From a virus: a stretch of 20,167 nt of DNA. The stretch spans positions 1 through 20,167 of IMG/VR virus record IMGVR_UViG_3300048549_000025, one strand, 5' to 3'. The translations under genes and the position numbers were made by a program. The notes under the pieces are model-generated. The model saw nothing but the letters and a program-made list of their open reading frames with translations. It did not search any database and was not told the DNA's origin. Every line of letters starts with the position of its first letter. Positions within the stretch are counted from its first letter, which is position 1. Shown here piece by piece: positions 1,540-2,676 of the stretch.

Positions 1540-2031
1540 ATGGAAATTATAGAAATGGATATAAGTGAAATAAAACCTTATAAAGATAATCCTAGAGAAA
1601 TTTCACAAGAAGCAGTAAAAAAAGTTAAAAATTCTATATCAGAATTTGGAAATAATCAACCTATCGTAATAGATCAAAATAATGTTATAGTTGTCGGTCA
1701 TACTAGATGGAAAGCATTAAAACAACTTAATAAAACTAAAGCTTATGTAATTAAAAAAAATTTTGACAAAAATAAGGCAGTTGCTTATAGAATTATGGAT
1801 AATAGATCGGGTGCTGAATCTAAATGGGATAAGCAGTTACTTATGTCTGAATTACAAGTTTTAAAAGATAATAAATTTGATTTAGATTTAACAGGATTTG
1901 ATGCATTAGAACTTAAAGACATTATATTAGATAAAGATTTATTTGAACCTACTGATAAAGATGATCAAGGAAAGCTAGATCAAGACACTAAAGAAATATG
2001 TCCTGAATGTGGCCAAGTTATCAATGGATAA
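1540..2031 (+). CDS. ParB/Srx-domain protein with C-terminal CxxC tail
   Basis: The N-terminal 90 residues form a ParB-like domain: I-x-P-Y-x-x-N-P-R (11-19), a helix 'SISEFGNNQPIVID' and the G-H-T-R-W motif (53-57) that corresponds to the GERR/GHTR nucleotide-binding motif of ParB/Srx proteins. Phage proteins of this type usually sit beside DNA-modifying enzymes and may act as nucleases, CTPases or regulators; partitioning is unlikely because there is no ParA and no HTH domain. The acidic C-terminus ends in C154-P-E-C157, half of a zinc-ribbon-like element. Its stop overlaps the start of the Mom-like gene by 8 bases, suggesting they are expressed and used together. Confidence 0.8.
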   Translation: MEIIEMDISEIKPYKDNPREISQEAVKKVKNSISEFGNNQPIVIDQNNVIVVGHTRWKALKQLNKTKAYVIKKNFDKNKAVAYRIMDNRSGAESKWDKQLLMSELQVLKDNKFDLDLTGFDALELKDIILDKDLFEPTDKDDQGKLDQDTKEICPECGQVING

Positions 2032-2611
2032 AGGATTATTTATAGACTATTGTAGTTATGAAGCTTCTAAATATGCAGTATTAAATTATCATTATTCTAA
2101 AGCTATGCCATCTGGAAAATTAGTTAGATTTGGAGTATGGGAAGATAAAGAATTTATAGGCTCGGTTTTATTCGGTTCTGGGGCTAATCCTAATATGTCT
2201 AAAGTAGTTAATCTTACACCTTATGAAGTATGTGAATTAGTTAGAGTTGCTTTAAATAAGCATAAAAACCCTGTTTCTAAAATAGTTTCATTCTGTATGA
2301 AGAAATTAAGAAAAGACTTTCCTAATATAAAAGCAGTAGTAAGCTACGCTGACCCTATACAAAATCATAAAGGAAAAATATATCAGGCTATGAATTGGCT
2401 ATATTTAGGCGAAACTAAAGGTGCTACACATTTTACACAAGATGGAAAATTTTATCATTCTAGAACTATTAATCAAAAGAATAGAGAAGATTCAGATTTT
2501 AATCGAGATGAATTTACTAAAGTAAATATGAAAAAATATAAGTATATCTATTTATTTGATAAATCTTTAAAAAAAATAATAAATGGAGAATTAAAAGAAT
2601 ATATTGCGTAG
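2024..2611 (+). CDS. mom: Mom-like DNA adenine modification protein (GNAT-fold)
   Basis: This 195-residue protein matches the phage Mu Mom family: N-terminal NYHYSKAMPSGK (21-32), a strand-rich segment V-W-E-D-K-E-F-I-G-S-V-L-F-G-S-G, then the diagnostic block VSYADP...H-K-G-K-IYQAMNWLYLGET. Mom has an acetyltransferase-like fold and converts N6 of adenine in phage DNA to a carbamoylmethyl form, which protects it from host restriction (known from Mu). I choose ATG 2024; an in-frame GTG at 2009 lies deeper in the ParB-like gene. The stop codon lies in the acceptor stem of the tRNA-like element. No separate com gene is seen, although the upstream ParB-like protein ends with a CxxC pair. Confidence 0.8.
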   Translation: MDKGLFIDYCSYEASKYAVLNYHYSKAMPSGKLVRFGVWEDKEFIGSVLFGSGANPNMSKVVNLTPYEVCELVRVALNKHKNPVSKIVSFCMKKLRKDFPNIKAVVSYADPIQNHKGKIYQAMNWLYLGETKGATHFTQDGKFYHSRTINQKNREDSDFNRDEFTKVNMKKYKYIYLFDKSLKKIINGELKEYIA

Positions 2612-2676
2612 GCTTTAGAAAGGCTAGGTGGTACCCCCACTTAGATAGGAGGTGCGATTCCTACCCCTACGCTCCA
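2606..2676 (+). ncRNA. tRNA-like cloverleaf with CCA end and reduced D arm
   Basis: Folding by eye gives a 7-bp perfect acceptor stem (GCGTAGG 2606-2612 with CCTACGC 2666-2672), an unpaired T2673 and encoded CCA 2674-2676. Inside are an anticodon-type arm (2626-2630 with 2638-2642, 7-base loop GTACCCC with T at position 33 and would-be anticodon ACC), a 5-base variable loop, and a T arm (2648-2664/2665, loop TGCGATT, stem GGAGG/CCT-A-CC with one bulged A). Only 10 bases occupy the D-arm region, and C replaces the usual purine at position 37, so this is not a normal tRNA. The anticodon-type stem can extend to 8 bp (2624-2631/2637-2644). It is either a decayed tRNA or, more interestingly, a tRNA-mimic RNA. 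Confidence 0.65.

Follow-up and report, generated by a model that had tools for sequence, protein, structure and literature searches.

The window analysed here is the whole 20,167-nucleotide stretch of IMG/VR virus record IMGVR_UViG_3300048549_000025 (positions 1 to 20,167). In its early part, a ParB-like gene, a mom gene and a 71-nt tRNA-like element lie in that order on the + strand, and the gene downstream of the element is probably terS (PHROG match, E=1e-6). The features are as follows:

1540..2031, + strand: ParB-like gene, directly upstream of mom
2027..2611, + strand: mom, GNAT-fold DNA adenine-modification enzyme (PF25680 E=6.5e-48; phrog_1384; 8bv8 Z=20.3)
2606..2676, + strand: tRNA-Gly-like element with encoded CCA, 71 nt (sequence, folding, relatives, covariance model)
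2606..2612, + strand: acceptor stem 5' strand GCGTAGG, with G1 C2 G3 at the glycine identity positions
2613..2625, + strand: short D region, 13 nt (read from sequence)
2626..2642, + strand: anticodon-type arm AGGTG-GTACCCC-CACTT, with U33 at 2632, ACC at 2633-2635 and C37 at 2636
2648..2665, + strand: T-type arm GGAGG-TGCGATT-CCTaCC, with the conserved bulged A64 at 2663 and UGC replacing TPsiC
2666..2676, + strand: acceptor 3' strand CCTACGC, with discriminator U73 at 2673 and encoded CCA at 2674-2676

The gene adjoining the element is a clear member of the Mom family with, as modeled, the fold of Mu Mom: its PF25680 match spans the whole protein, and the AlphaFold2 model (pLDDT 93) superimposes on Mu Mom (8bv8) over 185 aligned residues at an rmsd of 2.8. 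Among the matches listed, the closest folds behind that of Mu Mom belong to CoA-using GNATs (Z<=12.7); aminoacyl-tRNA transferases are absent from these matches, which are mostly CoA GNATs, an absence that is not informative either way. In the Mom alignment no GNAT CoA loop of the usual kind (Q/R-x-x-G-x-G/A) is apparent; a conserved serine (S84) occupies that place. The ParB-like–mom gene order recurs in Arthrobacter, Microbacterium and Psychrobacter phages and in phiEf11. Upstream of terS lies a variable accessory site, which holds mom in the window (2027-2611), an FkbM methyltransferase in Pelagibacter phage HTVC112P (L082:8304-9002) and other genes in other relatives.

The Element and Its Fold

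The element reads GCGTAGG-CTTTAGAAAGGCT-AGGTG-GTACCCC-CACTT-AGATA-GGAGG-TGCGATT-CCTaCC-CCTACGC-T-CCA. The original prediction had described a tRNA-like cloverleaf at 2606-2676, and nearly all of its particulars are borne out by the sequence: an acceptor stem with 7 of 7 pairs formed, U73 and encoded CCA; a 5-bp anticodon-type arm whose 7-nt loop carries U33, ACC and C37; a 5-nt variable loop (AGATA); and a T-like arm with a single bulged A. The only correction concerns the D-arm region, for which 10 bases had been given and in which 13 lie between the acceptor and anticodon stems. The sequence there would allow a 4-bp D stem (2615-2618 with 2624-2627), as a rival to an extended anticodon stem. 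The mom stop codon (TAG, 2609-2611) falls within the acceptor stem.

Standard tools pass over this RNA: ARAGORN made 0 calls in the window, and Rfam gave no match to the element at the gathering threshold or at E<=10 on 2400-2900; a snoR145 match at E=4.1 was set aside as chance, leaving no known Rfam family for the element. Folding energy (z=-1.86, with 9 of 200 shuffles equally good) would be weak evidence as the sole proof. The minimum-energy fold gives another T arm (2646-2651 with 2658-2663), which was rejected because variants in relatives disrupt its pairing and favor the bulged arm. It is the comparative evidence that confirms the window cloverleaf as genuine and puts it far beyond chance.

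That evidence comes from 100 distinct elements, in which every acceptor pair is formed in all (100/100, counted on parsed structures); the scanner that gathered most of them required stems, so the complete pairing is partly built in, but the variety of pair types is not. Acceptor pairs 4-7 occur in as many as four Watson-Crick types (shuffling would lead one to expect 39-63 of 100), the anticodon-stem pairs are likewise varied in type, and the T stem covaries around the bulged A64. In the alignment of the covariance-model training set, 100% of pairs are formed, with a covariation of 0.554 against 0.196 when shuffled; in that of the new elements the values are 97.9% and 0.678 against 0.156, with slid controls at or below 0.09. 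Model-based alignments lean towards their model, but this alone cannot explain the slid controls and the variety of pair types. When all classes were aligned with MAFFT, the members with long D regions had their 5' strand misplaced, and pairs were therefore counted on parsed structures and model-based alignments. The original prediction had proposed selection on structure and a search of related phages for pair-preserving changes and conservation; that search was run and found both, with compensatory changes in the stems across relatives.

Association of the Element With mom

IMG/VR was searched with the window terS protein and then with the window Mom protein. Relatives of terS that have mom carry the element, and those with a different gene in the slot are without it; among Mom relatives down to ~53% identity, the element stands at the mom 3' end even where the next gene differs. 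The placement between mom-like and terS genes was thus right as regards mom, but the partner of the element is mom and not terS. A packaging signal or other terS-linked RNA, which had been suggested as one function, is rejected, since the element is missing from mom-less terS loci and elsewhere tracks Mom next to any gene.

A profile search seeded with the Mom of Arthrobacter phage Sonny yielded 80 more Mom loci on the protein profile alone. In 63 of these 80, a cloverleaf scanner located a glycine-type element at the 3' end of mom; its hits numbered 0 in 240 dinucleotide shuffles and 1 in 1316 control windows drawn from those loci. Another 4 elements seen by eye bring the count to 67/80. With just 15 pelagiphage-type elements as its training set, a covariance model recovered 68 elements in 88 other sources, nearly all of them Mom loci; it also found 8 at Mom loci of bacterial or MAG origin, and the 313 kb taken from 59 mom-less terS loci gave none. 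Approached from the opposite side, a DNA pattern of the T arm and acceptor end gave 80 loci, with Mom directly upstream of the element in 69 and directly downstream in 3 (L363, L394, L405), 72/80 in all. The remainder comprises three loci that end at a contig edge, one cut within an apparent Mom C-terminus (L369), one with an intact element in which mom is seemingly reduced to a C-terminal remnant (L380:2754-2953), one with the element beside ParB and a PF22559 GNAT (L393) and two from a single phage type (L372/L410), whose 83-kb record has neither Mom nor a PF22559 GNAT. At these last two loci, the element has an apparent cytosine-5 methyltransferase on one side and the large terminase on the other.

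Over 38 loci, distances between elements correlate with those between Moms (Mantel r=0.28, with 0 of 5000 permutations as high), as expected for co-inherited parts. A separate observation comes from L123, on the same contig as L002, where a Mom 53% identical to that of the window is followed by an element identical to the window's; this sequence pattern reads as a recombination joint between mom and the element. No adjacent element was detected for the phage Mom lineages of Mu, ICP1, FSL SP-031, Vaquero, Hayley, Pan3, Liebe, Melnitz, phiEf11, LP-114 and JeffCo, nor for those of Yersinia/Serratia prophages. The element is an RNA family physically tied to Mom and apparently unreported.

Glycine Identity and Decoding Features

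G1-C72, C2-G71, G3-C70, U73 and C35 C36 are the identity nucleotides for glycyl-tRNA synthetase in bacteria, and they are nearly invariant in the family. When the best structural matches in 60 loci were taken without a sequence filter, G1C2G3 and U73 were each present in 60/60 and C35C36 in 57/60. The corresponding parser counts for the 100 distinct elements are 100, 100 and 96, although the automatic set within them had been filtered for a GC start, U73 and CC, so that the 60-locus figure is the unbiased one. The CCA end is encoded in 88/100 elements.

The features that serve decoding have fared otherwise. U33, universal in decoding tRNAs, is found in only 50/96 family elements, that of the window included. 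The bulged A64 is present in 89/100; the T loop has UUC in 12/100 and UGC or GGC (UGC in the window) in 68/100; and the D region is mostly 10-13 nt, with 13 in the window, and is not a canonical D arm with G18 G19. Measured against a canonical elongator tRNA-Gly, the family thus has the acceptor identity, U73, CCA and the NCC positions, but U33 as a family trait, a regular T stem with U54U55C56 and recognition by standard models are lacking. Retained glycine identity combined with lost decoding and EF-Tu determinants is the pattern of the staphylococcal-type non-ribosomal tRNA-Gly, with which the element would be classed on its sequence. The original prediction had called it tRNA-like but no normal decoding tRNA-Gly, a view with which the family agrees; the glycine identity, incidental there, is the central clue.

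A few members look canonical and are called tRNA-Gly(UCC) by ARAGORN (L149, L170, L191), and others have lost the D-loop GG and carry a UGC T loop on a still regular T stem (L148, L151, L168, L179). The existence of these canonical and intermediate members suggests descent from a normal tRNA-Gly(UCC) that drifted away from the ribosome with its charging identity retained.

Cultured Phages and Other Loci

Between mom and terS, Psychrobacter phage vB_PmaS_Y8A carries a tandem pair of elements (L338:1850-1990), whose differences covary; its paper reports no tRNA (PMC10434257). Another mom gene lies elsewhere in the same record. In Salinibacter phage B2_17 one element is present, annotated merely as tRNA-Gly. 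The mom of this phage (L335:1201-1790) matches PF25680 over 2-132 and 128-202 in overlapping pieces in different frames, and the deposited gene seems to be frameshifted. In Arthrobacter phage Sonny an unannotated element overlaps the mom 3' end, and in Microbacterium phage Appa a canonical tRNA-Gly(CCC) adjoins mom on the opposite strand. Two further loci have a canonical tRNA-Gly(UCC) a few hundred bases downstream of Mom and no degenerate element (L286:2358-2431, L293:2383-2456). At L201 an identical element occurs twice, at 1312-1381 and 2023-2092, 711 nt apart; the two 100-base stretches that end at the copies are exactly alike, and identity drops further upstream.

Firmicutes-type Mom loci (L308:2140-2240, L141, L162, L177, L180, L309, L310, L311, L312) are without the tRNA-Gly element; between mom and the gene that follows they have another region, structured and conserved, made up of a long closing stem, an inner stem and an ACGCGT-type hairpin, with pair-preserving changes at 14/26 pairs and no Rfam match in the loci searched.

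The element also lies near a second type of adenine-modification enzyme, DAM-like plus GNAT (PF22555/PF22559), in ~5/16 loci. Those near the DAM-like + GNAT fusion, adjacent to it or with ParB between, are at L495:660-727, L501:4499-4573, L502:4490-4564 and L509:1230-1305, and no Mom is present in the stretches retrieved for these four. These sequences hint at a more general principle.

A Probable Glycyl Donor for DNA Modification

We consider it quite probable that the element is a dedicated non-ribosomal tRNA-Gly that serves as glycyl donor to Mom for DNA modification. The RNA would be transcribed with mom and matured to a ~71-nt molecule ending in CCA, and host glycyl-tRNA synthetase is predicted to charge it with glycine because all the identity nucleotides are retained. 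Because of the bulged A64 and UGC loop of its T arm, and of its D arm and anticodon loop, the RNA would be unfit for EF-Tu and decoding and would be kept off the ribosome; once charged, it would pass its glycyl group to Mom and on to N6 of adenine in phage DNA. The product would be the known +C2H3NO glycinamide-type mark, which blocks restriction. Simple N6 acyl transfer would give an isomer of that mark; the known isomer could arise by an intramolecular rearrangement in which the glycyl amine attacks C6 and N6 leaves as the amide. Since Mu and several other Mom lineages have no adjacent element, host glycyl-tRNA would have to suffice in them if the mechanism is general.

The mark that Mom puts on adenine contains exactly one glycyl residue's atoms, and it is the adjacency to Mom of a chargeable, non-decoding tRNA-Gly that, taken with this composition, leads us to propose glycine as the donated group. 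The mark has been named ncm6A (PMC8281217), and reviews give the Mom donor, as predicted or stated, as glycyl-CoA or acetyl-CoA (PMC7824862; PMC11340752). This acyl-CoA assignment counts against the glycyl-tRNA donor, as do the CoA-GNAT folds, the element-less Mom lineages and the Mom-less phage type; in its favor are the lack of an apparent GNAT CoA loop in Mom, the element near a second GNAT type and the staphylococcal precedent. No report of Mom with glycyl-tRNA or aminoacyl-tRNA was found in open PubMed Central papers and a few preprints. In general terms, we think it likely that Mom enzymes, and perhaps the second DAM-like/GNAT family, take glycine from glycyl-tRNA, and that many phages carry a dedicated, ribosome-diverged tRNA for it.

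Alternative Explanations

The element might instead control mom in cis, through cleavage by RNase P or another RNase or through binding of glycyl-tRNA synthetase at the 3' end of the message, with glycylation acting as a sensor or being incidental; such control would tune Mom, which is toxic if mistimed. In most of the loci L146-L225 (e.g., L147, L165, L176) the mom frame is open through the entire element. At these loci the same DNA may encode both the Mom tail (..PYPKRAKQAM..) and the RNA, and since the frame crosses the element in most lineages, the mom message would lose its end when the tRNA matures, as cis control would have it. What such control leaves unexplained is the invariant glycine identity, including U73, C35 C36 and the frequently encoded CCA, as well as the elements upstream of mom and the tandem copies in Psychrobacter phage Y8A, and we regard it as unlikely.

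Another reading, that of an ordinary phage tRNA-Gly assisting the host in decoding glycine codons, would agree with the frequency of tRNAs in phages and with the canonical minority that ARAGORN recognizes, but most elements escape both ARAGORN and Rfam and are without U33, the UUC T loop and an intact T stem, and codon supply does not predict adjacency to Mom; we give this reading very little credence. Equally improbable to us is a glycyl-tRNA-like RNA with a target other than Mom, such as a decoy for host glycyl-tRNA synthetase or for an anticodon nuclease: the identity nucleotides would suit a decoy too, and one phage type has the element without Mom, but the linkage to Mom in 72 of the 80 element-first loci, from unrelated phages, speaks against it. 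A decayed tRNA or integration-site remnant, or a conserved Mom coding tail seen as a hairpin, has virtually no chance even though tRNA genes are common phage integration sites and the mom frame is open through many elements, because the massive covariation refutes it as the main explanation (and with it the decayed tRNA considered in the original prediction), an integration remnant is further at odds with the position, and lineages differ in how the reading frame falls on the element, the pelagiphage types having the mom stop within the acceptor stem and a compensated 3' strand.

Comparison With Known Systems

The RNA itself is a tRNA-Gly variant, and the pair that it forms with a DNA-modifying enzyme matches no known kind; we know of no earlier case of a tRNA serving DNA modification. 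A tRNA of glycine identity that is tied to mom across several host phyla (known for cultured phages only) points to a glycyl-tRNA donor. If this is true, the donor of the Mom reaction is named and a new class of tRNA use defined, the lack of tRNA calls by standard tools in phages like Psychrobacter phage Y8A would be explained, and the element becomes a recognizable RNA signature of DNA-modifying loci.

With the ordinary phage tRNA-Gly the element shares the cloverleaf outline, the NCC anticodon positions and CCA, and it differs in that most members are without U33, the UUC T loop and an intact T stem and in its fixed adjacency to mom. The Mom of phage Mu (PF25680; PDB 8bv8) is of the same family and fold as that of the window, but Mu has mom without an adjacent tRNA-like element, whereas the lineage of the window brings its own.

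The nearest likeness is to the staphylococcal non-proteinogenic tRNA-Gly, which has a GUGC T-loop and serves the Fem enzymes, themselves of GNAT-like fold, in building the pentaglycine bridge. In both RNAs glycine identity is kept, G18G19 is lost and the T-stem/EF-Tu determinants are weakened. The element, unlike its staphylococcal counterpart, is phage-encoded, adjoins a DNA-modifying enzyme and would have DNA adenine as its presumed acceptor; it also usually has the bulged A64, a shorter D arm and often no U33. In staphylococci, G18G19 is replaced, the pairs that bind EF-Tu are weak and the tRNA is the glycine donor for cell-wall bridges (PMC4052509). The charged tRNA is drawn away from the ribosome and serves a non-ribosomal aminoacyl transferase and, by analogy, the phage element would be diverted likewise.
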